Shown here one piece after another: positions 7,134 to 31,273 of a DNA stretch of 34,177 bases (the first letter of the stretch is position 1; every line of letters begins with the position of its first letter). The position numbers and the translations under genes are program-made. Below the pieces are notes generated by a model that ran no database searches, had not been told where the DNA came from, and saw nothing but the letters and a program-made list of their open reading frames with translations. Source of the stretch: Frankia sp. R82 (GTDB lineage Bacteria; Actinomycetota; Actinomycetes; Frankiales; Frankiaceae); contig NZ_JAMQQG010000297.1 in NCBI RefSeq assembly GCF_023716925.1, positions 1-34,177 on the forward strand, written 5' to 3'.

Positions 7134-7415
7134 TCAGCGGTGGTACACGTCCCGGCGGTGGTCGATATCGACGACGGTCACGTCCATGGTCTTGTCGTCG
7201 ACGCGGTAGATGATCCGGTAGGTTCCGCGCCGGGCACTGAACCGGTCGTCGAGCGGCGGCATCAGCCGTTTGCCGACTCGATAGGGGGCGTCGAGAAGCG
7301 GGCCGGCGATGAACTCGTACGCGGCCGTGGCGACCGGTTCCGACAGGGGCTCGCCGAGTGCGCGGCGGACCGTCGGCGTGGTCCGCAGGGTGTAGGGCCC
7401 GGCCGATCCGGTCAT
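7134..7415 (-). CDS. RelE/ParE-family toxin
   Basis: The 93-residue protein has the compact RelE fold pattern: YTLRTTPTVRRALGEPLSE at the start, LLDAPYRVGKRLMPPLDD in the middle, then SARRGTYRIIYRVDDKTMDV and VVDIDHRRDVYHR at the end. The last segment, with R-R-D-V-Y, is the standard RelE C-terminus carrying basic and tyrosine residues used in ribosome-dependent mRNA cleavage. Its ATG overlaps the antitoxin stop by four bases (7412-7415), so translation is coupled and the antitoxin comes first, as in relBE. It lies about 90 bp from the right end of the IS6-like element and appears intact. Confidence 0.87.
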   Translation of the reverse strand: MTGSAGPYTLRTTPTVRRALGEPLSEPVATAAYEFIAGPLLDAPYRVGKRLMPPLDDRFSARRGTYRIIYRVDDKTMDVTVVDIDHRRDVYHR

Positions 7416-7693
7416 GCGGTGCCGCGTCGGCGCCGCATCGTCTCGGCCAGCTCGTCCACGGTGACCTCTTCGCCGCGTGCGAGCTCCGCGTCGGACTGCG
7501 CGAGCCGGCGCATCGTGGCCGGATCGCTGAGGATCGCGAGTGTCTCCTCAAGCTGTTTGAGGTCCTCGACGGCCACGAGCACGGCCGACGGATGGCCGTG
7601 GACAGTGACGGTCACCCGCTCATGATGGTCGTGCACGCGGCCGACGAGTTCGGACAGGTGCGACTTCACCTCACCCAACGGCAACGTCGTCAT
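7412..7693 (-). CDS. Phd/YefM (RelB-type) antitoxin
   Basis: The 93-residue protein begins MTTLPLGEVKSHLSELVGRV, the canonical Phd/YefM DNA-binding start, followed by HHERVTVTVHGHPSAVLVAV and a C-terminal acidic helix region (LEETLAILSDPATMRRLAQS, then ELARGEEVTVDEL) that should bind the toxin. ATG 7693 is chosen because the family begins with this M-T-T-L-P-L pattern; the open frame continues upstream but is unrelated. It precedes and overlaps the RelE gene by four bases. Autoregulation is likely, and two direct TGACC-type sites overlap the start. No ribosome site is obvious, so the transcript may have a very short leader. Confidence 0.87.
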   Translation of the reverse strand: MTTLPLGEVKSHLSELVGRVHDHHERVTVTVHGHPSAVLVAVEDLKQLEETLAILSDPATMRRLAQSDAELARGEEVTVDELAETMRRRRGTA

Positions 7694-17400: not shown

Positions 17401-17854
17401 CCCGGTGAGTGACCCGTCGACCGATCCGCGCTGCGGCGGCGACGGTACTGACGGCACTTCCGGGACCGGCGGGACCGGCGGGGCCGGGAACCTGCCCTGC
17501 ACCGGGACACGCACCCCGGCCTGCGCGGACCCGAACGCGACCACGTCCGGTGGTGGCGCCGGTGGTGGCGCGGGTGGCGGCTACTTCGGCGGGGGTGGTG
17601 GCGCCGGTGGTGGCGGCACCTTCGGCGGCTATGGTGGCGCCGGTGGTGGAGGCGCTGGTGGGAGTTCGTTCGCCGCGTCGAGCATCGTGAACCCGGCTCT
17701 GACAAGCGGGGTCAACTCCGGCAGCGTCAACGGCGGCAACGGAGAGGTCACGATCACCTGGACCTCTGCTGGAACCTCGGCTCCGGTGCCGGCCCCGAGC
17801 CCGGCCCCGACTCCCGAGCCGTCCCCCACGCCCGCGCTGGCCACGAAGCCCTGA
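14411..17854 (+). CDS. Giant lipoprotein: two glycine-rich domains flanking a YVTN beta-propeller
   Basis: The 1,147-residue exported protein begins with a long, basic n-region, a hydrophobic segment and a lipobox LAGC with Cys about 42, so it should be lipid-anchored outside the membrane. Residues 45-405 are a glycine-rich domain, with GGGYFGGGGGSGGGG and a following GSSF as its clearest part, resembling the ALK/LTK-type glycine-rich fold. A Ser/Thr/Pro linker (410-450) follows. Residues 452-750 hold seven repeats with AYVxN and VTPIDVATNTPG motifs, a complete seven-blade YVTN propeller. Residues 757-1118 are a second copy of the glycine-rich domain, and the end is a short Pro-rich tail. GTG 14411 has AGAGGG nine bases upstream; a TTG at 14405 is too close to it. 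Scaffold, adhesion or ligand-binding roles are possible. Confidence 0.85.
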   Translation: MAGLFDSRTRCRRGRNVLRHRHVVAWSGSVLGMVLSLGLAGCEPASPSPCGKSGVLSGTTCTYNTVGSDTFTMPTGARWVQITAVGAQGGHYFVAGDAAHGGSPVGDITGRAGGGGGQASGTVTGLPSGRVLQVDVAGKGADGTAASRSGGKNNGPSGGQGAGGGFGGSNGGVAGGKGDAGGSAGGTASNNGGNGSGGGGSSDVRIATAGCAALTCGLADRALVGAGGGGGGGTGGQGYALPGGGGAGGGASGASGGALVDGGHPGAPGAGGSQTVGGAAGLNPGRHATPPPPDPNDPRFGGDGTDGAVGKGGVGGVGNQACLGEHNPPCRNPDDTDSGGGAGGGGGGGYFGGGGGSGGGGTSIGGGGAGAGGGGGSSFTSAAVTSAVLTTGVNTGTINNGNGQVTISWGTSASPSPTPSTSPSASPTSSTSPTATPTSGPTQGPGTKPAPATAYVINNFGNTVTPIDVTTNTAGAPIPVGASPRGLTVTPDGKTVYVTNRADNTVTPIDVATNTPGTPIPVGQFPFGVAVTPNGRTAYVVDNASDDVTPIDVATGTPGARIPVGDDAHGIVITPDGRTAYVANAASNTVTPIDVATNTAGTPIPAGNNPQWVVITPDGKTVYVTDNANAASATVTPIDVATNTPGKPIPVSDRPVGIAITPDGKTVYVTNERDNVVTPIDVATNTPGATVATGGVEPFAIAVTPDGVAAYAVNRDSNSVTPIDVATNTPGSPVSVGDRPVGIAIAPARTAPPAGPVCGSTGAQSGTTTMTCTYHTVGSDTFTVPAGVGSVEITVTGAQGGHYFIAGDAAHPSPAGDITGRPGGSGGRASGTLTGLTGGQVLQVDVAGKGADGTGASRSGGMSNGPSGGSGALGGFGGSNVGVPGGSGDAAGANGGTAFNGGNGSGGGGSSDVRLATAGCAARACQLSTRVLVAGGGGGAGGVGGQGNALGGAGGDAGADGGALVDGGNAGVPGKAGTQTVAGTGGLNACRHGAGNPPVSDPSTDPRCGGDGTDGTSGTGGTGGAGNLPCTGTRTPACADPNATTSGGGAGGGAGGGYFGGGGGAGGGGTFGGYGGAGGGGAGGSSFAASSIVNPALTSGVNSGSVNGGNGEVTITWTSAGTSAPVPAPSPAPTPEPSPTPALATKP
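15765..16665 (+). repeat. Seven propeller-blade repeats at DNA level
   Basis: Seven copies of a unit of about 126-135 bp share the core GTGACGCCGATCGACGTGGC (with variants). They encode blades one to seven of the lipoprotein's beta-propeller. The near-identical cores suggest recent expansion or gene conversion. Confidence 0.8.
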
Positions 17855-18261: not shown

Positions 18262-18918
18262 TTGCTCGACGTGATCGGCGCTGGTTTCGGCCGCACCGGG
18301 ACTCTTTCGCTCAAAGCGGCGTTGGAAAGGCTCGGGTACGGTCCCTGCCATCACATGGACGAGGTCCTCGCGCACCGCGACACCATTTCTGACTGGACCC
18401 GGGCCGCCGACGGCGGGCCCGTGACCTGGGACTCTCTGTATGAGGGGTACCGCTCGACGGTCGACTGGCCGGGGGCGAGGTTCTGGCGGGAACTTGCCGC
18501 CCACTACCCGTCGGCGCGGGTCATCCTGACCGTCCGCGACCCCGAGAAGTGGTACGACAGCGTACGGAACACGCTGTTCCGCGCTATTTCCACTACTCCG
18601 GTCGGAATAAACGAGGAAGCGCTGCGGGTCATCACGATGATGAAGCGGATCGTATGGGACGGCGCGTTCGAGGGCCGTTTCGCCGACCGGGAGCACACCC
18701 TCGCGGTCTTCGCCGAGCATCTCGCCGCGGTGCAACGCGAGATCCCGGCCGAACGCCTGCTGGTCCTCGACGTCGCGCAGGGCTGGGAGCCGCTGTGCGA
18801 GTTCCTCGGCGTCGCGGTCCCCGACGAGCCGTTCCCCCAGGCCAACGACCAGGACACGTTCGCCGCGAAGCACCGCGAGCGCATCGCGGCGGCCCTGCGC
18901 AAGCCCGCCCTTCTCTGA
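18262..18918 (+). CDS. Sulfotransferase family protein (P-loop, Sulfotransfer_4-like)
   Basis: The 218-residue protein should transfer a sulfuryl group from PAPS to a hydroxyl or amine of a small molecule. The PAPS 5'-phosphosulfate-binding loop is at the start, GAGFGRTGTLSLKAALERLG, and the 3'-phosphate site is RVILTVRDPEKWYDSVRNTL at about residues 91-110. The length and the RTGTxSL pattern match the short Sulfotransfer_4-like group. The start is a TTG at 18262 with GAGGAG five bases upstream, which is convincing. It is the first gene of the plus-strand cluster and is followed by a 571-bp gap, so it may be transcribed separately. Which hydroxyl of the cluster's product it uses is unknown. 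Confidence 0.86.
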   Translation: MLDVIGAGFGRTGTLSLKAALERLGYGPCHHMDEVLAHRDTISDWTRAADGGPVTWDSLYEGYRSTVDWPGARFWRELAAHYPSARVILTVRDPEKWYDSVRNTLFRAISTTPVGINEEALRVITMMKRIVWDGAFEGRFADREHTLAVFAEHLAAVQREIPAERLLVLDVAQGWEPLCEFLGVAVPDEPFPQANDQDTFAAKHRERIAAALRKPALL

Positions 18919-19489
18919 CACCCCTGACACCGCGGCCGGTCGCGTCGTCAAACGGTCCCGGGACAACAGCCTCCGCAGCAGGAAGCACAACGAGCCCGCC
19001 TCGATCTGCCACCCGGCCCCGCCACGTTCCGGCTCCCCTCACTCGCCCACGCGCCGCGTGATCAACCAGAATTACTAAGATCGAAAACAGGTAAATGGCA
19101 TCGACCTCCTGGTCAGGGCCGGTGCGGCGATCAGTCATGATCCATCCGACCCGGTCGGATAACGTGAGCTGTCGATGTTCACGGCCGACGCATCGACAGA
19201 CGGGCAGTTCAGATGCCCGATTCGGTGGTTCGAGCCCCAGGCGGCAACGTCCTGCCGTGGGTTTTGGCTGCGTATACCGGCCACCCTGAGTGAGCCGACA
19301 CCGGATCCCGGAGAATACAGCGACGCGCCGGTCCGTCCGGTGACAGGTGAGCACAGTGGATTGGTCCATCGTGGCTGCAAATCGGTTCGGCGCGCCGGTT
19401 GCCTGCATTCTCGGCGCCTGCGAACATGGTCCGTGACTGATCGTCGCTTTTCGAGGAACGGCCACCGGTGAATAACGGGAGCGTCCGAA
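18919..19489. other. 571-bp non-coding region between two sulfotransferase genes
   Basis: No gene is supported. An AT-richer patch lies near 19065-19100, and ATCCGAC-CCG-GTCGGAT at 19144-19160 is a perfect 7-bp inverted repeat with a 3-bp centre, a possible operator. The second sulfotransferase gene and the operon after it probably have their promoter here. Confidence 0.45.
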
Positions 19490-20617
19490 GTGGACACGAT
19501 CGGAACAGTCAGTGACATTCACGCCGCCGCCACGGCCCTGACCGGGCTCACCGATTTCGGCCCACCCGACTATCATGAGGGGCTTGATGTCATCCTGGCC
19601 GCCTACCAGGACGAGGCCGACCTTACTCCGCTCGGCGTCGCGATGGCCCGCGACGAGTTGCGCGACATTCTGGTGGCCCGGCTGTTCAGCGAGGCCGGCT
19701 GGCAACGCTATCCGGAGTACGCCGAGGTTCCGGTCGAGCGGCCGGTGTTCATCGTCGGCATGCCCCGCACGGGCACGACCACGTTGCACCGGCTGCTGAC
19801 CGCCGATCCGGCCCACCAGGGCCTGGAACTGTGGCTGGGTGCGGCCCCGCAGCCCCGCCCGCCGCTTCCGACCTGGCCGAACGACCCGATCTTCCAGCTC
19901 GTCCAGGGGGCGATCCACGGATTCCTGGAGCGGAACCCGGGCTATCTCGGCATTCACAACCGGGACGCGGCGAAGGTCGAGGAATGCTGGCTGCTGACCC
20001 GTCAGTCGATGCTGTCGGCCTTCTTCGAGTTCACCGGGCACGTGCCGACCTACTCGAACTGGCTGGTGAAGCAGGACTGGACCGCCGCCTACGCGCGTCA
20101 TCGGCGCAACCTGCAGCTGATCGGGCTGCCCACGCCCGGTCGGACCTGGGTGCTCAAGTACTCCGGCCATCTGCTGTGCCTGGACGCCCTGCTGGCCACC
20201 TATCCGGACGCGCTGATCGTGCACACCCACCGCCGCCCGGCCAGCACCGTGCTCGGCTCGGCCTGCAGCATGGTGAGCAGGCTCGCGGCGGGCAAGTCCA
20301 CCAGTTTCCACGGCGACGCCATCGGCCCGGCCCTGCTGGAGCTGGCCGAGCGCGCCCTGACCCGCTTCGCGGCGGACCGTGCCCGCCACGACCAGGCCCA
20401 CTTCCACGACGTGGAGTTCGACGAGTTCACCGCCGACCCCCACGATGTCGTCGCCGGGATCTACGCCCGCCTCGGCCGCCCGGTGCCCGAGCCCGCCCGC
20501 GCCGCCATGGCCGAGGTACTCGCCGAGGACGACCGACTGCGGTCGCACCGTTACGACCTGGCCGAGTTCGGCGTCACCGCCGAACAGACCGACGCCCGCC
20601 TCGCGACTCTGCTCTGA
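19490..20617 (+). CDS. Sulfotransferase (Sulfotransfer_3-like)
   Basis: The 375-residue PAPS-dependent sulfotransferase has the P-loop region VFIVGMPRTGTTTLHRLLTA at about residues 84-103. The 3'-phosphate-binding segment is ALIVHTHRRPASTVLGSACS at about residue 240. The motif PRTGTTxLHRLL and the preceding helical N-terminal region are typical of the larger actinobacterial sulfotransferases, distinct from the shorter one at 18262. It starts at GTG 19490 with GGGAG eight bases upstream. It is followed 31 bp later by the alpha-oxoamine synthase gene, so it is probably in one operon with it. Two different sulfotransferases in one cluster suggest two sulfation steps, or one sulfation and one non-catalytic role. 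Confidence 0.87.
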   Translation: MDTIGTVSDIHAAATALTGLTDFGPPDYHEGLDVILAAYQDEADLTPLGVAMARDELRDILVARLFSEAGWQRYPEYAEVPVERPVFIVGMPRTGTTTLHRLLTADPAHQGLELWLGAAPQPRPPLPTWPNDPIFQLVQGAIHGFLERNPGYLGIHNRDAAKVEECWLLTRQSMLSAFFEFTGHVPTYSNWLVKQDWTAAYARHRRNLQLIGLPTPGRTWVLKYSGHLLCLDALLATYPDALIVHTHRRPASTVLGSACSMVSRLAAGKSTSFHGDAIGPALLELAERALTRFAADRARHDQAHFHDVEFDEFTADPHDVVAGIYARLGRPVPEPARAAMAEVLAEDDRLRSHRYDLAEFGVTAEQTDARLATLL

Positions 20618-20648
20618 CCGCCCACCACACCGAACCGAGGAGATCCCG

Positions 20649-21896
20649 ATGACCACGACGGCGCCCTCGGGAACGACGGACACGGCACTGTCTCGCTGGG
20701 GCTTCTCCGAGTGGGTCGCGCGAACCCGCCAGACCGGCGAGTTCATCGACACCCCTGAGCTGGACGGGGTCAACGACGCGGTCATCAGCGTCGACGGCCG
20801 CCCGGTGGTCAACTTCGCCGGCATCGGCATCCTGGGCTGGCAGCACGACCCGGAGGTCCGCCGGGTCTTCGCCACCGCGGCGGCCGAGTACGGCCTGGTC
20901 GTCGGCGGTTCGCGGCTGGTCCAGGGCCTGTCCCGGCCGCACCTGGAGCTCGAGACGCTCGTGGCCGAGCTCACCGGCCAGGACAGGGCGCTCACCTTCG
21001 CCACCGGTCTGTTGGCCAACCTCGGTTTCGTCCACGCGATGAGGGCCCGGTTCTCGTTCGCCGGCGAACCCGGGGTGAACAACGCCGACATGGTCCTGGT
21101 GCTCGACCGGGACAGCCACTGGAGCGTGTGGAAGGCCGCCGACGGGTTCAGGTACGGGCGCAACCTGTTTGCCTTCCCGCACAACGACGTCGCGGCGCTG
21201 CGAACTCTGCTGGCCGAGCTTGGCGACCGGCAGGTCGTGGTCGGCTTCGAGACGGTCTACTCGTCCGACGGCTCGATGGCCCCGGTGGGTGCGATCCTGG
21301 ATGCCTGCGAGGAGTTCGGGGCGATCAGTTTCGTCGACGACGCCAACGGCTTCATGGCCTACGGAAACGGAGGCCACCGGTTCGCCGAAGAATACGAGGC
21401 GCTACGCCGTGCCACCTTCCGGATGGTGTCGTTCGGAAAGGCCGTCGGACTTTCTGGCGGCGCCATCGCCGGGCCGGCGGACGCCATTGACGCCTTCCGT
21501 TTCCTGTCGGGCACGTCGATTTTCACGACGAACATCCAGCCGCCGACCGCCCAGGCCGTCACGTACGTGCTCGAGCGGATGCGCCGCGACCCGTCGCTGA
21601 TGGAGCGCTATCTCGACCGGATCGACCGGCTGCGCGGACGCCTGGCCGCGATCGGGTGCTCCATCAATCCCACGCCGACCTTCGTCACCTCGATAGCCAT
21701 CGGTTCCAACGAAACGGCCGTACGGGTGCGTCGGGACTTTCTCGAGCGCGGCTACCTGGTGCCGATCTTCGTCTATCCGGCGGTCCGGAAGAACGAGGCG
21801 GTCATCCGCCTGCTCGTGAACGATCGGCTGTCCGACGAGCAGCTCGACGGCTTCGTCGACACGCTGGCCGAACTCCGGACGATCCACGGCTTCTGA
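20649..21896 (+). CDS. Alpha-oxoamine synthase (PLP-dependent, BioF/KBL/SPT family)
   Basis: The 415-residue enzyme should join an acyl thioester to an amino acid with loss of CO2, giving an alpha-aminoketone, as serine palmitoyltransferase or BioF do. The PLP lysine is K264 in MVSFGKAVGLSGGAIAG; D230 in ISFVDDANGF should bind the pyridine nitrogen; H157 in LDRDSHWS should stack on the ring; FAFPHND matches the family. One oddity is that the conserved His three residues after D230 is Asn (N233). GAGGAG precedes the ATG at 20649. Genes for an FAAL and an ACP lie downstream, so the acyl donor may be acyl-ACP rather than acyl-CoA. The amino acid partner is unknown. Confidence 0.86.
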   Translation: MTTTAPSGTTDTALSRWGFSEWVARTRQTGEFIDTPELDGVNDAVISVDGRPVVNFAGIGILGWQHDPEVRRVFATAAAEYGLVVGGSRLVQGLSRPHLELETLVAELTGQDRALTFATGLLANLGFVHAMRARFSFAGEPGVNNADMVLVLDRDSHWSVWKAADGFRYGRNLFAFPHNDVAALRTLLAELGDRQVVVGFETVYSSDGSMAPVGAILDACEEFGAISFVDDANGFMAYGNGGHRFAEEYEALRRATFRMVSFGKAVGLSGGAIAGPADAIDAFRFLSGTSIFTTNIQPPTAQAVTYVLERMRRDPSLMERYLDRIDRLRGRLAAIGCSINPTPTFVTSIAIGSNETAVRVRRDFLERGYLVPIFVYPAVRKNEAVIRLLVNDRLSDEQLDGFVDTLAELRTIHGF

Positions 21897-21938
21897 CACC
21901 GCCCGGCCCGCCGCGGGCCGGCCCGAACGAGGGGCATC

Positions 21939-22838
21939 ATGGATTCCCAGTCACCGGATTCCCCGTCTCTGGCCGGGACGGCCGCTCGGCCCGTCACCCG
22001 GCCGACATCTCGGCCGGTCGCCCTGGTCACCGGGTGTTCGAGCGGCATCGGCGTGCGCTGTGTCCCGGCGCTGGTCCGGCGGGGGTTCCACGTCGTCGCC
22101 ACCCTGCGCGACCTGAGCCGCCGCGCCGTGCTCGACGAGGTCACCGACGAGCACGTCACGGTGCTTCGGCTGGACGTGACCGACCAGCGGACGATCGACG
22201 AGGCCGTCGCCGCCGTCCTGGCCGCGACCGGCCGTATCGACGTACTGGTCAACAACGCGGGGACGGCGCCGCCGAACTTCGTCGAGGAGGCACCGCTCGC
22301 GCAGTGGCGATCGGTGTTCGAGACCAACCTGTTCGGCCAGGTCGCGGTGACCAACGCCGTTCTGCCCACGATGCGGGCACAGGGGCGGGGCCGGGTGGTG
22401 ATGGTCTCCAGCGTCGGCGGGCGGGCGCCGACGCCACTGCTCGGCGTCTACTGCGCCTCGAAGTTCGCCCTCGAGGGGTACGCCGAGACGCTACGCCTGG
22501 AACTGCGACATTCGGGCATCGATGTCGCGCTGGTCGAACCGGGCTCCTACCGGACGCGTATCTACGACACGCCGCTGCTGCACGCGCCCGTCCCCGTCGA
22601 GTCGCCCTATGCGGACGACTTTGTCCGGCTGCGCGCGTTCTACCGCGACTACATCGCCCATCACCTGCGCGACCCCGACGAGGTCGCGGAACTGGTCGCG
22701 GCCCTCGCCGCCCGGCCGCGTCAGCGCCTGCGCCATCCGGTCGGCACCGACGCCTGGATCAAGCTCGCGCTGCACGCCCTGCTTCCCTGGCCGGCCTACG
22801 AGCGGCTGACCCGGCGACTGATCGGCCTGCGACCGTAG
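21939..22838 (+). CDS. Short-chain dehydrogenase/reductase (ketoreductase)
   Basis: The 299-residue classical SDR has an extra N-terminal extension of about 25 residues. The cofactor motif is VALVTGCSSGIGVRCV (near residue 28), then VLVNNAG, the catalytic Ser in VVMVSSVGGRAP and the catalytic pair in LGVYCASKFALEGYAETL (Y and K four apart). The overall pattern resembles 3-ketosphinganine reductase-type SDRs. In the cluster it would reduce the aminoketone made by the alpha-oxoamine synthase to an amino alcohol. The ATG at 21939 has GAGGGG upstream; the gap to the synthase is 42 bp. The C-terminal 60 residues (YADDFVRLRAFYRDYIAHHL, then WIKLALHALLPWPAYERLTR) contain an amphipathic, possibly membrane-associated part. 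Confidence 0.87.
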   Translation: MDSQSPDSPSLAGTAARPVTRPTSRPVALVTGCSSGIGVRCVPALVRRGFHVVATLRDLSRRAVLDEVTDEHVTVLRLDVTDQRTIDEAVAAVLAATGRIDVLVNNAGTAPPNFVEEAPLAQWRSVFETNLFGQVAVTNAVLPTMRAQGRGRVVMVSSVGGRAPTPLLGVYCASKFALEGYAETLRLELRHSGIDVALVEPGSYRTRIYDTPLLHAPVPVESPYADDFVRLRAFYRDYIAHHLRDPDEVAELVAALAARPRQRLRHPVGTDAWIKLALHALLPWPAYERLTRRLIGLRP

Positions 22839-22862
22839 CCGCCGCACGGATGAGGAGCGCCG

Positions 22863-24380
22863 ATGACATCGACGTCGCGGCCACCCGGCGTGGAAACGAC
22901 ACATGGTCCTGACCCGGTGACGTCGAACGGCCTGCCTGCCCGCCGGCGGCAGGTGGTGCTGGGGATCTGCTGTCTGAGTGTCTTCGTCGTCGCGATGGAT
23001 GCGACGATCCTCAACGTCGGCCTGCCGTCGATCAGAAGCGACCTGCACGCCACCGACGCCAGGCTGCAGTGGACGGTCGACGCCTACAGCCTGGTGCTGG
23101 CAAGCCTGTTACTCCTTGCCGGCTCGATGGGCGACCGGTTCGGACGACGGCGCGTTTTCCGGACCGGTCTGACGCTGTTCTCCGTGGGATCCCTGTTGTG
23201 CAGCCTCGCGCCCGGACTCGGCTGGCTGATCGTCTTCCGGATGATCCAGGCGGTCGGCGGATCCATGCTCAATCCCGTCGCCCTGGCGATCATCACGAAC
23301 ACCTTCACCGATCGTCGGGAGCGGGCCCGCGCGATCGGCCTGTGGGCCGCGGTGGTCGGGCTCAGCCTGGCGCTGGGGCCGGTGCTCGGCGGACTCCTGA
23401 TCGACACGGTCGGCTGGCGGTCGATCTTCTGGATCAACGTGCCGGTCGGAGTCCTCGCGGTGGCGCTCAGCGGCCGGTATGTGCCCGAGTCGAGGGCGCC
23501 GCGGGCCCGCCGCTTCGATCCCGCGGGTCAGGCGCTCGTTGCCAGCACCTTCGTCGCCCTCGTGTTCGCGATCATCGAGGCGCCGGACGCCGGCTGGACC
23601 GCCCCGCGGACGGGCGCCGCGTTCGGCGTCGCCGCGCTGGCCCTGGCCGGGCTGGTCTGGTGCGAGAAGCGACGTGCGGACCCGCTTCTCGATCCGCGGT
23701 TCTTTCGCAGCGCACCGTTCTGCGGGGCCACCGCCATCGCGGTCTGCGGCTACGCGACGATGGGCGGATTCCTCTTTCTGAACACCCTCTATCTCCAGGC
23801 GGTACGGGGCTACTCGGCCATGCACGCCGGCCTGCTCACGCTCCCGATGGCGGCGATCGCCGCGGCGACGTCGCCGTTCTCCGGACGACTGGTGGCCCGC
23901 CACGGCCCCCGCCCCGCCCTTGTCCTCGCCGGGATCGCGATACCGGCCAGCGGCGTCATCCTTCTCTCCTTCCTGGGCACCGGCTCGGGCCTCGCGCCGG
24001 TCATCTGCGCGTATGTGCTCTTCGGTGCCGGATTCGGGATGGTCAGTGCCCCCACCACGAACGTCGCCGTCTCCGGGATGCCGCTCGCCCAGGCCGGCGT
24101 CGCGGGGGCCCTCGCCGGTACCAGCCGACAGCTCGGCCTGTCGCTGGGCGTCGCCGTCTTCGGTTCGGTGGCCGCACACCACGGCGCGGGTGGTCCAGGG
24201 ACGGCCACCATCGACCCGACCAGCGGCGCCCCCTGGTGGATCATGATCTGCTGTGGGTTGGCCATCGCGGCACTGGGCGTTCTGACCACCGGCCGCTGGG
24301 CGCAGGACACCGCTGCCCGCACCGCGGCGCTTCTCACCGCCCATCCGGCACCGACGCGGCGACCACCGGGACCGTCATGA
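22863..24380 (+). CDS. MFS transporter, DHA2 (14-TM) drug-efflux type
   Basis: The 505-residue membrane protein of the EmrB/QacA group would export the cluster's product by proton exchange. The first helix carries the motif DATILNVGLPSI (motif D1), loop 2-3 has GSMGDRFGRRRVF (motif A), and ALGPVLGGLLIDTVGWRSIF is motif C of drug antiporters. The number of hydrophobic segments fits 14 helices. It starts at ATG 22863 with GAGGAG upstream, 24 bp after the SDR stop, and so is co-transcribed. It is the last gene before a 277-bp gap that holds a new promoter. Self-resistance as well as export is likely. Confidence 0.88.
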   Translation: MTSTSRPPGVETTHGPDPVTSNGLPARRRQVVLGICCLSVFVVAMDATILNVGLPSIRSDLHATDARLQWTVDAYSLVLASLLLLAGSMGDRFGRRRVFRTGLTLFSVGSLLCSLAPGLGWLIVFRMIQAVGGSMLNPVALAIITNTFTDRRERARAIGLWAAVVGLSLALGPVLGGLLIDTVGWRSIFWINVPVGVLAVALSGRYVPESRAPRARRFDPAGQALVASTFVALVFAIIEAPDAGWTAPRTGAAFGVAALALAGLVWCEKRRADPLLDPRFFRSAPFCGATAIAVCGYATMGGFLFLNTLYLQAVRGYSAMHAGLLTLPMAAIAAATSPFSGRLVARHGPRPALVLAGIAIPASGVILLSFLGTGSGLAPVICAYVLFGAGFGMVSAPTTNVAVSGMPLAQAGVAGALAGTSRQLGLSLGVAVFGSVAAHHGAGGPGTATIDPTSGAPWWIMICCGLAIAALGVLTTGRWAQDTAARTAALLTAHPAPTRRPPGPS

Positions 24381-24572
24381 TGGCGACGCGCGACCGCGGA
24401 CTCCGCGTCCTCCGGAGCGGATGAAGGTCGATCGATTGGAAGAATCTATTGTCGGTGCGGCCGAGCGAACCTGCACAGGCCTTCCGTGTAAAACACCGGC
24501 TGACCAGCGCAGTCGCATTTTTGATAGTCGAGGACAGATTCCTGTCGGCCGGTCGATGGCCAGTAGTCGAAC

Positions 24573-24602
24573 TTGACAGTGCCCACTCGGCAATTTGAGA
24601 AT
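24573..24602 (+). promoter_or_regulatory. Predicted promoter of the second cluster operon
   Basis: TTGACA (24573-24578), 18 bp, then GAGAAT (24597-24602, with A and T at the key -10 positions). It lies in an AT-richer 277-bp gap (24381-24657) that holds no gene, 56 bp before the carbamoyltransferase start. Confidence 0.5.
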
Positions 24603-24657
24603 GTGTAAAGACGCCAGTTCGGGCAGTCCCCCTCTTCAAAAGGGACGGACCTCTGTC

Positions 24658-26376
24658 ATGAATGACATCTTCTGTGGACTCAAGCTCACTCACGACGGCT
24701 GCATGGCCGTGATCAGGAAAAACGAGCTGATCTTCTCGATCGAGGCCGAGAAACTGGAGAACCGGCCGCGCTACTCCCCGTTGAACACGTGGCGTGATCT
24801 CGTCGCGGTGCTCGACGGGCAGGGACTGCGGCCGGATGACCTGACATCTGTGGCGGTGGACGGCTGGGGGCGCACCGGCGGAGCGGACGCGCCCACGCTG
24901 CACGTGGTCGACGATGCGGGAAACAGCAGGTCGGTGCCGGTCGCCGCCTACCGTGATCAGCCCGGTACGGGTGCCGATCCGCTCAGCCGGCCGTTCGAGG
25001 CCGCCGCGCTGTTCGGCGACGGGCTGGTGAAGTTCCGCAGCTTCAGCCACGCGACCGACCACGCGCTGGCGAGCTACTGCAGCAGCCCGTTCGCCGCCCG
25101 GAACCAGCCCGCGCTCATCGTGGTGTGGGACGGCGGAATGGCGCCCTGCCTCTACCACTACGACCCGGCCCACCGGACACTGCGACCGCTGCGGTGGCTG
25201 CTGGATGTCCTGGGCGGTCTCTATCCCGTGTTCGCCACCCACCTGGCGCCGTTCCGCACCGGCGAGACGGCCCTCGACACGGATGTCCAGAAGCTGGAAA
25301 CCGTGATCCTGCCGGTGTCCGGCAAGGCGATGGCCTACGCGGCGCTGGGAGCCCCGGACGACGAGGCCATGGCCGTCATGGCGGCCACCTCGGCCGCGCA
25401 CCGGCCGGCCGATCTGGTGCGCATGTACGTGTGGAGCCGCACCGTGCTGCGCGAGCTGGCGCCCCGGAAGCTCTCCGACGCCACGCTGATCGCCTCGCTG
25501 CAGAAATACCTCGGCGATCTCCTGGCCGAATCCCTGGGGCGGTTCCTGACCGAACACCAGGAGTTCCGCCGAACCCCGCTCTGCCTGTCCGGCGGCTGCG
25601 CCCTGAACATCAAGTGGAACGCCCGGATCCGGGACTCCGGCCTGTTTCCCGACGTCTGGGTTCCGCCCTTTCCCAACGATGCGGGTTCGGCCATCGGTGC
25701 CGCCTGCGCAGAAATGATCGACCGGACCGGAAGGAGCGATCTGCACTGGTCGGTGTTCGCCGGTCCGGAGGTGCCCCCCGCCGGGGACCTGCCCGCGGGC
25801 TGGGCGTCCCGGCCCTGCACGCTCGACGAGCTGGCCGAGCTGCTCGCCGTCGAGGGCGAGCCGGTGGTGGTGTTGACCGGACGGGCCGAGATCGGGCCTC
25901 GCGCACTCGGGCACCGCAGCATCATCGCCCCCGCGACGGACGCCGGCATGCGGGACCGGCTGAACGACCTGAAACAACGCGCGTACTACCGCCCGGTCGC
26001 GCCGATCTGCCTGCAGGAGTCGGCGCCCGAGGTGTTCTCGCCGGGCACCCGGGACCCCCACATGCTGTTCGAGCACCAGGTCCGTCCGCAGTGGCGGGAC
26101 CGGATTCCGGCGGTCGTCCACATCGACGCGAGCGCGCGGCTGCAGACGGTCGGCCCGGACAATCCCGCGATGTACGAGCTGCTGCTCGGCTACCAGCGGC
26201 GGACCGGGATACCGGTGCTGTGCAACACCAGTGCGAACCTCAACGGATCCGGGTTCTTTCCGGACGTCGCCTCAGCGCTGCGCTGGGGGAAGGTTCGGTA
26301 CGTCTGGTCGGAGGGAACTCTCCTGCACTCCTCGGCCGGTCGATTCTCGGCCGGTCGATCCTTGGCCGGTCGATGA
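24658..26376 (+). CDS. NodU/CmcH-type O-carbamoyltransferase
   Basis: The 572-residue enzyme should transfer a carbamoyl group from carbamoyl phosphate, through a carbamoyl-adenylate, to a hydroxyl. The N-terminal Kae1-like domain has LKLTHDGCMAV and FSIEAEKLENR, then the metal-binding pair in FSHATDHALASY (H131, H135), VVWDGGMAP, and LCLSGGCALNIKWN near residue 310. The C-terminal YrdC-like carbamoyltransferase half has GRAEIGPRALGHRSI (about 409) and NTSANLNGSGFFPD. ATG 24658 gives the family's normal start; an in-frame ATG at 24595 lies inside the promoter. Three 15-bp repeats form the last 15 codons, and the stop overlaps the P450 start (ATGA). It probably decorates the aminolipid. Confidence 0.87.
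   Translation: MNDIFCGLKLTHDGCMAVIRKNELIFSIEAEKLENRPRYSPLNTWRDLVAVLDGQGLRPDDLTSVAVDGWGRTGGADAPTLHVVDDAGNSRSVPVAAYRDQPGTGADPLSRPFEAAALFGDGLVKFRSFSHATDHALASYCSSPFAARNQPALIVVWDGGMAPCLYHYDPAHRTLRPLRWLLDVLGGLYPVFATHLAPFRTGETALDTDVQKLETVILPVSGKAMAYAALGAPDDEAMAVMAATSAAHRPADLVRMYVWSRTVLRELAPRKLSDATLIASLQKYLGDLLAESLGRFLTEHQEFRRTPLCLSGGCALNIKWNARIRDSGLFPDVWVPPFPNDAGSAIGAACAEMIDRTGRSDLHWSVFAGPEVPPAGDLPAGWASRPCTLDELAELLAVEGEPVVVLTGRAEIGPRALGHRSIIAPATDAGMRDRLNDLKQRAYYRPVAPICLQESAPEVFSPGTRDPHMLFEHQVRPQWRDRIPAVVHIDASARLQTVGPDNPAMYELLLGYQRRTGIPVLCNTSANLNGSGFFPDVASALRWGKVRYVWSEGTLLHSSAGRFSAGRSLAGR
26332..26376 (+). repeat. Three 15-bp tandem repeats at a gene junction
   Basis: Units at 26332-26346, 26347-26361 and 26362-26376 share the core TGGCCGGTCGAT or TCGGCCGGTCGAT. 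They encode the repeated SAGRF, SAGRS, LAGR end of the carbamoyltransferase. The third unit supplies the ATGA that overlaps stop and start of the next gene. Confidence 0.8.
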
Positions 26377-27644
26377 CCGATCTCGGCGGGGTCTTCACCA
26401 GGCTGCCGGAGGTCCTGCGCGAGCAGCAGCCCTATCCGAGGCTCGCGCAGCTGCGGCAGGCCTCGCCGTACCTGGCCGCCGACGGCGTTGTCGTGGTCGC
26501 CAGGCACGACCACTGCACGGCGATCCTGCGTGATCCCCGCACGAGCAGCGATCGGGGCCGGGCCCGCATCTTCCGCGCGGACGTACGGCCGCCGAGCCGC
26601 CAGCTCGTCGATCTCGATCCGCCGGATCACACGCGGATCCGCCGCCTGGTGTCCCGGTCCTTCACGGCGCGCGCGATGGCACCGCTGGCGGGACAGGTTC
26701 GCCGAACGGTCCACGAGCTGCTCGACGCGGTGCCCGCTGGCGGCCCGTTCGACGTCATCGCCGATCTCGCCTCGCCGCTGGCGCTGTCGACGGTCTGCAC
26801 CCTGATGGGAGTTCCCGCCGCGGACCACGAGCTGGTCGGCGGCTGGTCGCGCACGCTCTCGCGCGGGCTCTACCCGCTCCCGCTGGGCTCCGTCGACCCG
26901 GACACGACGAGGGCCGCCGCACGGGCCGGTGCGCGCATCCTCACCTACTTCAAGAAGCTGCTGGGCGAACCACGAGCGACGCCACCGGGGCCGGTACTCG
27001 CCGACCTGCTGGGCGTCGGTGAGCAGCGAACCCCGCTGGGTGAGAGCGACCTTCTGGGTGTCTGTGCGCTGCTGGTGAACGCCGGGTACGAGACGACGGT
27101 CGATCTCATCGGCAACGGCATCCGGGCGCTGCTGGAACATCCGGATCAGCTGGTCCGCCTCGCCCGCGACCCGAGCCTGGCGCCCGCCGTGGTGGACGAG
27201 GTACTGCGCTACGACTCGCCCGCGCAGATCACCACCCGGGTCGCCACCGCCGACCTGGACGTCGGCGGGCAGCAGATCGCCGCCGGTGACTTCCTGGTGC
27301 TCCTGCTCGGTGCGGCCAACCGCGATCCCGCGGTGTTCAGCCGGCCGGACGACTTCATCGTCGGGCGGCCGGAGCCCGCGGCGCACCTGGCGTTCGCGGC
27401 GGGCCCGCACTTCTGCCTCGGCGGCGGACTCGCGCGCCTCGAGGGCGCCGCCGCCTTCGAGGCGTTCGCCACCCGCGTGATCGAGCCGAGGCTGGCGTCG
27501 ACGCCGGTCGACTACAGACCGACCCCGAGCTTTCGCGGCCCGGAGAGCCTCCCGGTCGGGTGCCGCGGTGTTCGCGCGGCACCGCCCGGAGCGGACGACA
27601 TGGCGGCCGATCACCGGGTCGGCCCGGGAAGGAGACGAGGGTGA
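26373..27644 (+). CDS. Cytochrome P450 (first of two)
   Basis: The 423-residue soluble bacterial P450 has a complete catalytic set: I-helix LLVNAGYETTVDLIG (A237, G238, E240, T241, T242), ExxR in DEVLRYDSP (E276, R279) and heme loop FAAGPHFCLGGGLARLE with Cys348. PPDHTRIRRLVSRSFT near residue 83 is the usual C-helix region. It probably hydroxylates or otherwise oxidises the acyl chain or an intermediate, with external ferredoxin and reductase, as none is encoded here. Its ATG overlaps the carbamoyltransferase stop by four bases, and its own stop overlaps the FAAL start by four bases, so translation is coupled both ways. The last 30 residues are Pro/Arg/Gly-rich and probably disordered. Confidence 0.88.
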   Translation: MTDLGGVFTRLPEVLREQQPYPRLAQLRQASPYLAADGVVVVARHDHCTAILRDPRTSSDRGRARIFRADVRPPSRQLVDLDPPDHTRIRRLVSRSFTARAMAPLAGQVRRTVHELLDAVPAGGPFDVIADLASPLALSTVCTLMGVPAADHELVGGWSRTLSRGLYPLPLGSVDPDTTRAAARAGARILTYFKKLLGEPRATPPGPVLADLLGVGEQRTPLGESDLLGVCALLVNAGYETTVDLIGNGIRALLEHPDQLVRLARDPSLAPAVVDEVLRYDSPAQITTRVATADLDVGGQQIAAGDFLVLLLGAANRDPAVFSRPDDFIVGRPEPAAHLAFAAGPHFCLGGGLARLEGAAAFEAFATRVIEPRLASTPVDYRPTPSFRGPESLPVGCRGVRAAPPGADDMAADHRVGPGRRRG

Positions 27645-29377
27645 GCGCTGCGACCACGGCCACTGCGACCACGGCAAACAGCGTGGCGGGGGCCTTCCGG
27701 GAACGGGTTCGGGAGCACGGCGACCGACTGGCCGTCGCGCTCGTGCGTGACCCCGACGATCCGAGCACCACCGAGTCCTGGACCTACCGCCGCCTGCACG
27801 ACGAGGCGAGCGCCGTAGCCGCGCACCTCGGGTCGCGCAGCCGGCCGGGGGACCGGGTCCTGCTGACCTACCCGTCCGGACCGGACTTCGCCGCGGCGTT
27901 CCTCGGTTGCCTCTACGCGGGTGTCGTCGCCGTCCCGGCGCCGTTGCCCGTGCGGTCAGCGCAGCAGAAGCGGCGGGTGAGCGCCATCGCGACCGACGCC
28001 GGCGCGGCGGTGGTCCTGGCCCATTCCAGCGACCGCGACGTGGTTGCGCAGTGGCTGTCCGACGAGGAGCTCGCGGGGATCGTCCCCGTGTTCACCGACA
28101 TCCTGCCACCGGCTCCGGCGCACACCCCTGCCGCGCCGGAGCCCGGACCCGAATCCGTCGCCTTCCTGCAGTACACGTCGGGTTCCACCGGGGACGCGAA
28201 GGGGGTCGCGCTCACCCACGACAACATCCTGACCAATGCCCGGATCCTGTTCGAGATCACGGCGCTGCCGCCGGCGGAGATCCGCCTGGTCTGCTGGCTT
28301 CCGCTCTACCACGACATGGGGCTGATCGGGCAGCTTCTGAGCCCACTGCTCGTCGGCGGCACCACCTACCTCCTCGACCCCGCCACCTTCGTCCGCCGCC
28401 CCTACTCCTGGCTGCGCACCATCGACCGGTACCGGGCCACGGTGTCGGCCGCGCCGGACTTCGCCTTCGGCCTGTGCGTCGAGCGGATCAGCGACGAGGA
28501 CGTCGCCCGGCTCGACCTGTCGAGCTGGACGATGGCGACCAACGGCGCCGACTGGCTCAACCTGTCGACGATGCAACGTTTCATCGACCGGTTTTCCCCC
28601 GCCGGTTTCCGGGCCGAGCTGTGCCCGGCGTACGGCCTGGCGGAGGCCACGCTGATCGTGGCCAGCCGGCGGGCGGGCACGCTGCGGGTGCTCGACGCGG
28701 ACCGGGGTGCCCTCGACGCCGGTCGCTTCGAGCCCACCGGATCGGCCGAGGCCGCGAAAAAGATCGTCAGCTGCGGGCCGCCCCTCGAGATCGACCTGGA
28801 GCTCGTCGATCCGGACACGCTCACCCCGCTCCCGGACCACCAGGTCGGCGAGATCTGGCTGCGCGGGCGCAGCGTCGCCCTGGGGTACTGGGGGCGGCCC
28901 GACCAGACCCGCCAGCTGTTCCACGCGACGACGGCCGCGGGCGACGGGCCGTACCTGCGCACCGGCGATCTCGGTTTCCGCCACGACGGCGAGCTGTACG
29001 TCACCGGGCGGATCAAGGAGATCATCGTCGTGCGCGGACTGAAGATCTACCCACAGGACATCGAGTCGGCGCTGCGCGCGGAACTGCCCGACCTGGCGGG
29101 CGTCTCCGCCGCCTTCCGTCTGCCGGGCGCCGACGACGAACCGGACCGGGTCGTCCTCACCCACGAGATCAGGCAGGTCCCGACCGAACGTCTGCCGGAA
29201 CTGGCCCAGGACGTCGTGCACCTGGTGGCCCGCGAGTTCGGTGCCCAGGTCGCCGCGGTGCTGTTCCTGCGGCCGGGCCAGGTGCTGCGGACCACCAGCG
29301 GAAAAGTGAAGCGCGTCGAGATGCGCGAACACTTCCTCGCGGGCACGCTGCGGCCGATCTACCAGCACACCCGTTGA
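27641..29377 (+). CDS. Fatty acyl-AMP ligase (FAAL)
   Basis: The 578-residue adenylating enzyme of the FAAL group activates a fatty acid as acyl-AMP and loads an ACP rather than CoA. The P-loop is LQYTSGSTGDAKGVALTHDN (about 177-194), followed by WLPLYHDMGLIGQLLSP, a hallmark of FAALs. MATNGADWLN, AYGLAEATLI, LRTGDLGF, VTGRIKEIIVVRGLKIYPQD and TTSGKVKR (K555) follow. GLKIYPQDIE is the FAAL form of the hinge region. GTG 27641 overlaps the P450 stop and is preceded by GGAAGGAG; the frame continues upstream but is inside the P450 gene. An ACP gene begins 22 bp after its stop and is the obvious acceptor. Confidence 0.9.
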   Translation: MSAATTATATTANSVAGAFRERVREHGDRLAVALVRDPDDPSTTESWTYRRLHDEASAVAAHLGSRSRPGDRVLLTYPSGPDFAAAFLGCLYAGVVAVPAPLPVRSAQQKRRVSAIATDAGAAVVLAHSSDRDVVAQWLSDEELAGIVPVFTDILPPAPAHTPAAPEPGPESVAFLQYTSGSTGDAKGVALTHDNILTNARILFEITALPPAEIRLVCWLPLYHDMGLIGQLLSPLLVGGTTYLLDPATFVRRPYSWLRTIDRYRATVSAAPDFAFGLCVERISDEDVARLDLSSWTMATNGADWLNLSTMQRFIDRFSPAGFRAELCPAYGLAEATLIVASRRAGTLRVLDADRGALDAGRFEPTGSAEAAKKIVSCGPPLEIDLELVDPDTLTPLPDHQVGEIWLRGRSVALGYWGRPDQTRQLFHATTAAGDGPYLRTGDLGFRHDGELYVTGRIKEIIVVRGLKIYPQDIESALRAELPDLAGVSAAFRLPGADDEPDRVVLTHEIRQVPTERLPELAQDVVHLVAREFGAQVAAVLFLRPGQVLRTTSGKVKRVEMREHFLAGTLRPIYQHTR

Positions 29378-29399
29378 CCTCGATGACAGGAGACGACAG

Positions 29400-29705
29400 A
29401 TGAGCACCAGGAACGAGGCGCGTGGCCGGCAGCAGGTCGACGCGGAACAGCTGCGTGGGTGGCTGGTGGCCCGGGCCGCCAGATACGTGCGGATGGACGC
29501 CGCGGACGTCGACTGCGACCTGGCGTTGTCCCAGTACGGCATGGATTCGGTGAGCGCGGTCGCCATCGCCGTCGACCTCGAGGACACCTTCGGGGTCGTG
29601 CTCGACGTCGACACCCTGTGGAAGTACCCGACCGTGAACCAGGTGGTCGAGATGCTGCTGTCCCTCCGGCCGGGCGTGCGCGACCAGCGGGAGGAACTCC
29701 GGTGA
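29400..29705 (+). CDS. Acyl carrier protein
   Basis: This stand-alone 101-residue ACP has the phosphopantetheine site SQYGMDSVSAVAIAVDLED with Ser50 as the attachment residue. The helix order (QLRGWLVARAARYVRMD, then the DSVSA helix, then VVLDVDTLWKYPTVNQVVEM) is that of type II carriers linked to FAALs and to PKS or NRPS loading. It starts at ATG 29400, and its stop overlaps the second P450 start by four bases. A phosphopantetheinyl transferase must come from elsewhere. It should carry the acyl chain from the FAAL to the alpha-oxoamine synthase, and possibly to the P450s. Confidence 0.9.
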   Translation: MSTRNEARGRQQVDAEQLRGWLVARAARYVRMDAADVDCDLALSQYGMDSVSAVAIAVDLEDTFGVVLDVDTLWKYPTVNQVVEMLLSLRPGVRDQREELR

Positions 29706-30970
29706 GTGAACCTTCGACGGCCGGTGGCGTCGTTGCGCGGCAGTGCCCGGTCGACACCTCCCTGCACAGTCGGCTCAGGTCCCCGGATTTCGCGGCGAAT
29801 CCCTTCACCCCGCTCGGCGAGCTGCGCGAGCGCGGACCGGTGCACCGATGCGAGCCGCCCGGCTCATCGCCGATCTGGCTGATCACCCGGTACGCGGAGG
29901 GAGCCGCCGCGCTGCTCGACCGCCGGCTGGTGAAGGACCCGACGGCGGCCGGGCTGCCCGCGGGCTGGCAGCCCGGCGAGGGCACCTCCCAGCTCTGGTC
30001 ACGGGATCTGGCGAGCAACGACCCGCCGCACCACACCAGGCTGCGCCGGCTGGTCGCCCGCCCGTTCACGCCGCGCCGGGTCGAGTCGCTGCGGCCCGGG
30101 ATCGAGCAGGCAGCCCGGGACCTGCGTGAACGCATGGTGAAGCAGGACACCTTCGATCTGATCACCGATTTCGCCGGCGGCCTGACCACCGCCACGATCT
30201 GCGACCTGCTCGGTATCCCGGCCGGGGACCGGGAGCTGTTCCAGACCTGGGGAGACCGGTTCTTCACGGTCACCGTCCCGGGACAGGCCGACAACGACCT
30301 GTTCGTCGCGATCACCAAGTACTTCGCCAGGCTCATCGTCCGCCGGCGCGAGGAGCCGCAGGACGACCTGCTCAGCGCCCTGATCCGGGACACCGGCGAG
30401 GACAGGCTCGACGGCCACGAGCTGATCTCGATGGCGGCGTCGCTGCTGATCACCGGCCATGAACCGGGCGTCCGGCTGATCGGCAACGCGTTGTACCTCC
30501 TGCTGCGCCGGCCCGAGCAGGTGCAGGCGCTGCAGGAGGACCCGACCCGGATCCCGGCCACCATCCGGGAGGTTCTCCGGTTCGACAGTCCGGCCCTGAC
30601 CTCGCTCGTCCGGTTCGCCGCCGAGGACGTGGAGCTCGGCGACGTCGTGATCCGTCGCGGCGACGCGGTGCTGGTCTCCCTGGTCGCGGCCAACCGTGAC
30701 CCGGCCAGGTTCGCCGATCCCGACGAGTTCCGGCCGTCGCGCGACACCACCGGCCATCTCGGGTTCGGCCTTGGTATCCACTTCTGCATCGGCGCGCAGC
30801 TGGCCCAGCTGGAGGCGGAGGTCGCGCTGCGCGAGCTGCTGCCGCTGCTCCCTCATCTCCGCCTGGCCGTCCCGGTCGACGACCTGCGCTGGCACCCGGG
30901 TCTGCAGATGTACGGCATCCGCGACCTTCCGGTCCGGATGGCGGGCGCCGAGTCCGGCACACCCGGATAG
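29702..30970 (+). CDS. Cytochrome P450 (second of two) with altered I-helix
   Basis: This is a 422-residue P450. ExxR is EVLRFDSPAL (E290, R293), and the heme loop FGLGIHFCIGAQLAQLE carries Cys362. In the I-helix the usual acid-alcohol motif reads LLITGHEPGVRLIG: E254 is present but the conserved Thr is replaced by Pro255 and the next position is Gly. Loss of that Thr changes oxygen activation in known P450s, so substrate-assisted catalysis or unusual chemistry is possible. GTG 29702 overlaps the ACP stop, so it ends a tightly coupled set (P450, FAAL, ACP, P450). A carrier-bound substrate is plausible from this coupling, but is inference. Confidence 0.88.
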   Translation: MSEPSTAGGVVARQCPVDTSLHSRLRSPDFAANPFTPLGELRERGPVHRCEPPGSSPIWLITRYAEGAAALLDRRLVKDPTAAGLPAGWQPGEGTSQLWSRDLASNDPPHHTRLRRLVARPFTPRRVESLRPGIEQAARDLRERMVKQDTFDLITDFAGGLTTATICDLLGIPAGDRELFQTWGDRFFTVTVPGQADNDLFVAITKYFARLIVRRREEPQDDLLSALIRDTGEDRLDGHELISMAASLLITGHEPGVRLIGNALYLLLRRPEQVQALQEDPTRIPATIREVLRFDSPALTSLVRFAAEDVELGDVVIRRGDAVLVSLVAANRDPARFADPDEFRPSRDTTGHLGFGLGIHFCIGAQLAQLEAEVALRELLPLLPHLRLAVPVDDLRWHPGLQMYGIRDLPVRMAGAESGTPG

Positions 30971-31273
30971 CGCTCACCGGCCGCATCCGGAGCGGTCATC
31001 GTCGTCCGTCTGATGCCCGGGTCCCGGCTGAAACGGGTCCTCCGTGACCCTCGGGTGGTGCTTGCCAAGGCCCAGCGCGCCGAGCAGGCTCGCCAGGTCG
31101 TCAAACTCCGCCTACGTGACATCGAGTGGCCCGAGCACGACTGGCTCCAACCGCTCGTGTCGACCAGATCGAGGTGCGTGCATGTCACGCACGATAGACA
31201 ACACGCCGGACTGTTGGTGCAGGCCCGGACACGGTGTCAGGATGGTGACGAAACCATCCATACGGGGGACGCC
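30971..31273. other. Gap between cluster and TIR gene
   Basis: No separate gene is supported. The TIR frame stays open back to an ATG at 31013, reading LKRVLRDPRVVLAKAQRAEQ and RLRDIEWPEHDW. This looks like a coding remnant joined in frame rather than part of the TIR protein, since no ribosome site precedes 31013. Confidence 0.4.

Follow-up and report, generated by a model that had tools for sequence, protein, structure and literature searches.

Gene content and layout of the locus

The window, a 34,177-nt stretch of DNA from Frankia sp. R82, is part of a 6.9-Mb Frankia genome (contig C340). At 18262-30970 it carries the ten plus-strand genes studied here, in the order ST4, ST3, AOS, SDR, MFS, CbT, P450a, FAAL, ACP and P450b; among them are an alpha-oxoamine synthase (AOS), a sulfotransferase upstream of it (ST3), and a fatty acyl-AMP ligase (FAAL) followed by an acyl carrier protein (ACP). 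Gene families were assigned by Pfam and NCBIfam profile searches of the window proteins. Each of the ten has a Pfam family, with best E-values from 1e-14 (ACP) to 1e-68 (FAAL), bearing out the genes, families and strand given in an initial annotation of this DNA. Its statement that the locus has no polyketide synthase (PKS) or nonribosomal peptide synthetase (NRPS) module was likewise correct: neither Pfam nor NCBIfam revealed a condensing domain of either type in any of the ten genes. The features are listed below.

18262-18918, plus strand: ST4, Sulfotransfer_4 family; a neighbour, judged to lie outside the cluster
19490-20617, plus strand: ST3, sulfotransferase of the 3'-phosphoadenosine 5'-phosphosulfate (PAPS) type (Sulfotransfer_3, PF13469, 2.3e-46); start of the conserved pair
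20649-21896, plus strand: AOS, Aminotran_1_2 family, pyridoxal phosphate (PLP)-type alpha-oxoamine synthase of the DDANGF clade, PLP lysine K264
21939-22838, plus strand: SDR, short-chain dehydrogenase/reductase (Pfam 1.3e-50; TGCSSGIG, NNAG and YCASK motifs), proposed aminoketone reductase
22863-24380, plus strand: MFS, major facilitator superfamily exporter of EmrB/DHA2 type (Pfam 2.1e-58; TIGR00711, 262.6 bits versus a cut-off of 230.2)
24497-24515, plus strand: possible terminator, consensus match only
24573-24602, plus strand: sigma-70-like promoter, consensus match only
24658-26376 (scanned from 24595), plus strand: CbT, NodU-like carbamoyltransferase (PF02543 3e-49, PF16861 1.6e-44)
26373-27644, plus strand: P450a, cytochrome P450 by Pfam, FAAGPHFCLG heme motif, AGYETT I-helix
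27641-29377, plus strand: FAAL, Pfam AMP-ligase family (1e-68), with FAAL-specific insertion
29400-29705, plus strand: ACP, free acyl carrier protein (Pfam 1.2e-14), attachment serine in GMDSVSA
29702-30970, plus strand: P450b, cytochrome P450 by Pfam, heme motif intact, I-helix TGHEPG

The initial annotation took all ten genes as one cluster, a claim that the layout does not uphold. ST4 stands 571 bp from ST3; ST3 to MFS are spaced by 31, 42 and 24 bp; a 277-bp gap then splits the remainder, followed by a tight run from CbT to P450b (-4, -4, 22 and -4 bp). The gap contains a terminator-like and a promoter-like site, both weak and in numbers near chance (consensus scan: one promoter versus 0.4 expected, two terminators versus 3.4 expected). 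The cluster is real and sensible, but smaller and more composite than first described.

The inclusion of ST4 was tried and rejected. Homologues of ST4 (59-72%) occur in 12 of the 34 other genomes of the order. Five of these genomes (G003, G010, G013, G017 and G033; G- and L-numbers label relatives' genomes and the loci compared with the window) also carry ST3-AOS; in them the homologue and the pair are on different contigs or separated by 100 kb or more, and the remaining homologues are in genomes without the pair. The 571-bp gap and the consistent distance of the homologues from ST3-AOS speak against membership, and we judge ST4 to be a Frankiaceae gene found elsewhere in relatives. A weak association of ST4 with AOS presence (6/8 versus 7/27 genomes, own genome counted, Fisher p 0.019) leans against this exclusion.

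ST3 and AOS form a conserved pair

A search of 295 relatives found AOS at no less than 71% identity at nine loci in eight genomes (own included), all belonging to one family, and a 40% match in one further genome. A wider scan of 84,980 genomes, led by short peptide patterns and thus able to miss relatives, added Nocardia alba and Amycolatopsis sp. GM8 (AOS 71%), a further twelve loci with identities of 41-51%, and L028, a partial match at 26%. In 11/11 loci with AOS identity of at least 71%, ST3 lies directly upstream on the same strand, about 11-168 bp away. An independent ST3 search of the 35 genomes of the order recovered exactly the same eight genomes and nine places (Fisher p 4e-8 for co-presence, with genomes that are not independent). 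ST3 and AOS are a conserved pair, and because of this unbroken adjacency sulfation is tied to the AOS. No ST3 match was found at 13 more distant AOS-clade loci. Among 396 genomes of the phylum, AOS was found only in the genome itself, a soft absence given that three or four candidates were scored per genome; 17 phage records gave weak AOS matches.

The ST3 protein scores 159 bits against PF13469 (gathering threshold 27), carries the 5'-phosphosulfate loop PRTGTT, and has 2zq5_A as its closest solved chain (E 1e-114); a simple pattern for the 3'-phosphate-binding motif gave no match.

Conservation falls off after the pair. It is followed by an SDR orthologue (84-94%) at three places, namely G003, G013 and one of the G019 loci; G003 and G013 also have an MFS orthologue (78-91%), so that, counting the window, SDR is present at 4 and MFS at 3 of the 11 loci. 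Of the two runs, only ST3-AOS-SDR-MFS is kept in close relatives. The G003 MFS protein has a glyoxalase-like tail, and the ST3 gene there is preceded by one for an MMPL transporter.

The constancy of ST3 permits another view of the sulfate, as a leaving group: ST3 would activate a hydroxyl for ring closure or elimination, and the end product would be unsulfated. Sulfate-activated ring closure is known from aziridine formation in azinomycin. That ST3 is the invariant partner of the AOS while the other enzymes vary is as expected for a core step and not a tailoring step, and an activating sulfation is described in parts of PMC11837247 for the FAAL-led olefin synthase, by a paired sulfotransferase and thioesterase. 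Beside ST3 in the window there is no such thioesterase partner, and sequence cannot tell decoration from activation. We consider a leaving-group role improbable and favor a sulfated end product.

The AOS belongs to a separate clade

The AOS stays under the cut-off of every NCBIfam AOS model that it matches, the top one being BioF (210 versus 426 bits). Against the equivalog models for serine palmitoyltransferase (SPT) it reaches 165.4 versus 500, 146 versus 640 and 111.8 versus 670 bits. The PLP lysine K264 is invariant in the alignment. The His of the DEAH (DE/DD-A-H) motif is Asn in 25/25 clade rows (DDANGF) and His in 7/7 other AOS rows. In the NDYLG motif, all 25 clade rows have Ile or Val in place of Asn, which is present in 6 of the 7 others (exception L076); the SPT chain 2w8t has Tyr at that column, with Asn one column on. 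The NDYLG change was considered as a second clade mark and weakened by L076 and 2w8t; because one solved SPT also lacks this Asn, only the His change is clean. The altered residues presumably contact PLP and the amino acid, as in structures of 8-amino-7-oxononanoate synthase (AONS) and 5-aminolevulinate synthase (ALAS).

In a 30-row tree (L003, L018, L027 and L032 omitted, L032 being a copy of L013; long-branch and composition warnings), a branch supported at 100/100 set the 23 clade rows apart from the others, and the AOS proteins linked to ST3, 11 in number, formed a subclade that was likewise supported at 100/100. By this tree the AOS belongs to a separate, well-supported clade, with a deeper placing made unsure by long branches among the seven outsiders. 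A predicted model (mean pLDDT 89) has the AOS fold, with the SPT 8guh as the best Foldseek match (TM 0.85), and a fold search left ALAS, 2-amino-3-ketobutyrate CoA ligase (KBL), SPT and AONS tied at Z about 40-44, favoring no single family. The product had been called sphingoid-like, a description that is unproven given the SPT scores (165 versus 500 bits) and the Asn for the conserved His.

Carrier proteins and FAAL-type ligases at related loci

The window ligase has the FAAL insertion after YGLAE (YGxAE motif), as do 7/10 aligned ligases, itself included; the three without it are non-FAAL controls (a CoA-ligase, L020 and a carboxylic acid reductase). FAAL models score higher (PRK05850, 394 bits; PRK09192, 365 bits) than the best acyl-CoA-ligase-named model (284 bits), all below curated cut-offs. 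On these features its assignment to the FAAL family holds, and acyl transfer to holo-ACP rather than to CoA is predicted. The ACP gives a weak match to the Pks13 model (NF040607, 36 bits), over model positions 1-85.

At three further loci (G017, G033 and G034) the run that contains ST3-AOS also encodes an AMP ligase, a free ACP, a thioesterase-like protein, a CMAS-type methyltransferase and a carboxylic acid reductase; a desaturase-like protein joins them in G017 and G034. In N. alba a comparable gene set accompanies ST3-AOS on the opposite strand, and in Amycolatopsis a similar reductase gene, named by eye, adjoins the pair. These families were assigned by Pfam for G017 and the N. alba reductase and otherwise by similarity, by eye, as were all ACPs except that of G017; the G017 reductase scores 1584 against a cut-off of 1300. 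G017, G033 and N. alba have ligases with the insertion (G034 was outside that alignment); these ligases are 32-35% identical to the window FAAL, and different FAAL-type ligases thus accompany ST3-AOS. For the G017 ligase, FAAL- and CoA-ligase-named models score nearly equally (393 versus 383 bits), and the FAAL call was made by the insertion. An AMP ligase with a free ACP therefore counts at 5 of the 11 ST3-AOS loci, window included; the window ACP as query found no ACP at the related loci.

The same genes outline a larger family of clusters, present in both Frankiaceae and Nocardia (L036:2312-14770, L037, L038 and L014). Around ST3 and AOS its members have a FAAL-type ligase, an ACP, a CMAS-type methyltransferase and a carboxylic acid reductase, to which some add a desaturase-like gene.

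The 13 distant AOS-clade loci comprise L016-L027 and L039, with the near-copies L017 and L018 both counted. At six of them an ACP, FAAL or PKS lies next to the AOS or in its surroundings (L016, L019, L023, L026, L027 and L039); in L019 this is a FAAL with a weak ACP domain, and the L039 PKS was named by eye. We regard FAAL and ACP feeding the AOS as the likeliest core chemistry. The initial annotation had proposed this route from fatty acid through acyl-ACP to AOS; the link is likely, with support from G017, G033, G034, N. alba, the six distant loci and an SPT precedent discussed below.

The strain-specific run

Orthologues of CbT, P450a, FAAL, ACP and P450b were found at no other ST3-AOS locus, some of which gave weaker P450 or ligase matches. 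CbT was found in no genome but its own among the 295 relatives and 396 phylum genomes, again a soft absence with three or four candidates per genome. Both O-carbamoyltransferase Pfam domains exceed gathering (168.8 and 151.9 bits). The nearest relative in a plasmid collection is a protein of Streptomyces NBC_01237 (48.9%), whose gene adjoins ACP-like and NRPS-like genes (named by eye). The 'doubly decorated' lipid of the initial annotation comes down to one linked sulfotransferase plus a CbT found in this genome only.

As Frankia is a symbiont, CbT and a sulfotransferase might be imagined to act on a lipochitooligosaccharide, giving a Nod-factor-like signal. CbT scores 547.5 bits against the NCBIfam NodU model, the listed rhizobial NodU records are about 42-43% identical to it, and Paraburkholderia groups a sulfotransferase, a NodA-family gene, nodB, nodC and nodU. 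That score is nevertheless below the NodU cut-off of 1000, and the Streptomyces protein is closer. NodA was not found in this or 12 other genomes of the genus (searched by family and protein, where no positive control matched), and none of the ten genes is of the NodA, NodB or NodC family. AOS and FAAL have no known place in the Nod-factor pathway. We consider such a signal very improbable.

Proposed pathway

We propose, with a probability of about 0.5, that the locus is a biosynthetic cluster whose product is an amino alcohol or aminoketone, derived from a fatty acid and sulfated, and that it combines a conserved core with a strain-specific add-on. Judged by homology, the core is ST3-AOS with SDR and MFS and the addition is CbT-P450a-FAAL-ACP-P450b; together these nine genes (ST4 left out) look able to give a sulfated, perhaps carbamate-bearing amino-lipid. 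In this pathway, FAAL would adenylate a fatty acid and load the adjacent ACP, and one or both P450s might oxidize either the acyl chain or, at a later stage, the lipid. In a decarboxylative condensation of acyl-ACP and an amino acid, the AOS would release the chain as an alpha-aminoketone, and SDR would reduce the ketone. ST3 would add sulfate, CbT would carbamoylate a hydroxyl that may itself stem from a P450 reaction, and the MFS protein would export the product. We infer the reactions and their order, the amino acid, the chain length, the sulfation and carbamoylation sites, and the joint action of both runs.

Several observations weigh against this proposal. The 277-bp gap makes ST3-AOS-SDR-MFS and CbT-P450a-FAAL-ACP-P450b possibly separate transcription units. 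The four closest loci (G003, G013 and G019 twice) contain no orthologue of any of the five add-on genes, so that the ST3-AOS pair can work without these. SDR has an orthologue at just 4 of the 11 ST3-AOS loci, FAAL plus ACP were not seen at 6 of the 11 in the stretches examined (ACP by eye), and 7 of the 13 distant clade loci have no ACP, FAAL or PKS nearby; in relatives without a nearby FAAL/ACP, the AOS acyl group must come another way. Asn replaces the conserved active-site His in the AOS, and for this reason the AOS reaction itself is not assured. The I-helix of P450b (TGHEPG) is without the usual Thr, which is present in 7/8 other P450s of the window and related loci (in L017 the pattern caught another stretch), and its oxygen activation may be unusual or lost.

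The same gap and distribution bear on the possibility of two adjacent but separate pathways, in which the product of ST3-AOS-SDR-MFS is a small aminoketone or amino alcohol that is sulfated and derives from acyl-CoA or from acyl-ACP of fatty acid synthesis, and CbT-P450a-FAAL-ACP-P450b feeds an assembly line elsewhere in the genome. In G003 and G013 only the first run is conserved, the promoter- and terminator-like sites fall between the runs, and the Streptomyces relative of CbT stands beside an NRPS-like gene. Unrelated clusters may also be stacked here: in G011 a homologue of the gene at 14498-17854 precedes another FAAL and a large ACP-headed protein. The second run, however, is without any PKS, NRPS or thioesterase domain, and elsewhere ST3-AOS is accompanied by a different FAAL-type ligase and ACP. 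We regard two separate pathways as rather unlikely and retain the single composite cluster: the five genes from CbT to P450b include no enzyme for condensation or release, and the AOS would supply both functions.

A bolder proposal, possible though doubtful, is that these loci define a new class of actinobacterial sulfo-aminolipids whose synthesis involves no PKS, NRPS or canonical SPT, in which FAAL/ACP feeds a DDANGF AOS with a fixed sulfotransferase, and whose core lipid is oxidized and carbamoylated in this strain. In this view ST3 perhaps acts on the side-chain hydroxyl of the amino acid used, since ST3 and AOS stay together at loci where an adjacent SDR was not seen.

Relation to known systems

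One precedent is the AasR-AcpR-SPT system of Caulobacter and other Rhodobacteria, in which, according to parts of PMC9386255, a dedicated acyl-ACP synthetase makes acyl-ACP, the preferred SPT substrate. Both systems have an acyl-ACP synthetase and a free ACP that feed, or here would feed, an AOS-family enzyme, followed by a keto-reductase. Here, by contrast, the ligase is a FAAL, the AOS is far below SPT cut-offs, the host is an actinobacterium, and a sulfotransferase, CbT, P450s and an MFS protein are added. At family level the bacterial-sphingolipid gene set (acyl-ACP ligase, ACP, AOS and keto-reductase types) is together in the window. No ceramide N-acyltransferase was found in a search covering the ten genes; its gene is not clustered in all sphingolipid makers, as stated in the same source.

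In Pseudomonas fluorescens MYb115 the PKS-AOS pair SgaAB makes sphingolipids (excerpts of PMC12134224). There too the bond between acyl chain and amino acid is made by an AOS within a secondary-metabolite cluster, with a reductase presumed next; the chain is built by an iterative PKS instead of being supplied by FAAL/ACP, and the portions at hand describe no sulfo- or carbamoyl transfer. FAAL-initiated natural product clusters (parts of PMC11837247) share the stand-alone FAAL with a neighboring ACP but mostly hand the acyl group to a PKS or NRPS. The available text of this 2025 FAAL review gave no match for oxoamine, pyridoxal, PLP, aminoketone or carbamoyl. In the literature searches, for which subscription journals were mostly outside scope, we found no described cluster with this gene set, in agreement with the initial annotation. 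Among the matches listed for two or more of a carboxylic acid reductase, a sulfotransferase and a FAAL, no such cluster was described, judging from title and opening of the abstract.

In Alistipes, the sulfur of sulfonolipids reportedly enters as cysteate and not via a sulfotransferase. The Alistipes cysteate acyl-ACP transferase (PMC9304779; PDB 7u7h) resembles the present system in its AOS fold, its use of acyl-ACP and a sulfur-bearing lipid.

Saxitoxin-type clusters likewise combine an AOS-like part, an O-carbamoyltransferase and a sulfotransferase. The present locus follows a FAAL-led lipid logic and has no amidinotransferase family among the ten genes; the likeness is one of tool set, with descent not shown. 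Excerpts of PMC2684587 link the AOS part of SxtA to the Frankia protein YP_482822, which we reckon to be about Francci3_3717 from the correspondence of Francci3_1756 to YP_480861 (in part of PMC4257720). G010 has a DDANGF AOS at 2.37 Mb and a second AOS-family match, 32% identical, at 4.51 Mb. G010 is probably Frankia strain CcI3. Kinship of the window AOS with the saxitoxin AOS was dropped, the 2009 Frankia match being more likely the BioF-like gene of G010. The portions of PMC11906848 on other AOS enzymes held nothing decisive for this AOS.

Among these systems, the cluster is a variant of carrier-fed AOS lipid pathways. If the proposal is true, carrier-fed aminoketone lipid synthesis, proven in Proteobacteria, reaches Frankia, Nocardia and Amycolatopsis, where the condensing enzyme has a sulfotransferase as its constant partner. 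Being small and conserved, ST3-AOS would be easy to test, and the departure of its AOS clade from the conserved active-site His makes the substrate an answerable question. Sulfated or carbamoylated polar lipids of a plant-symbiont genus could matter for host contact, although nothing here shows that.

Flanking genes and other Frankia loci

Downstream, 42 bp or more after P450b, 31013-33946 encodes a TIR-domain protein of 882-977 aa (start unsure) with a weak match to the ThsB TIR model. Upstream, 14498-17854 encodes a glycine-rich beta-propeller protein, found also at L056:1464-4877; in G011 a 79% homologue lies about 3 kb from the FAAL gene and large ACP-headed protein mentioned above, and this region may be a variable site for FAAL-type clusters. 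Two toxin-antitoxin-like pairs, Gp49/HTH (5393-6078) and ParE/Phd-YefM (7134-7693), flank an IS240-type transposase fragment (6407-6799). Another cluster shared between Frankia genomes (AgB32, L057:7941-15756; G010, L060:7656-15245) contains a FAAL, P450s and an ACP by tblastn, together with a methyltransferase-like and a membrane-protein-like gene recognized by eye.

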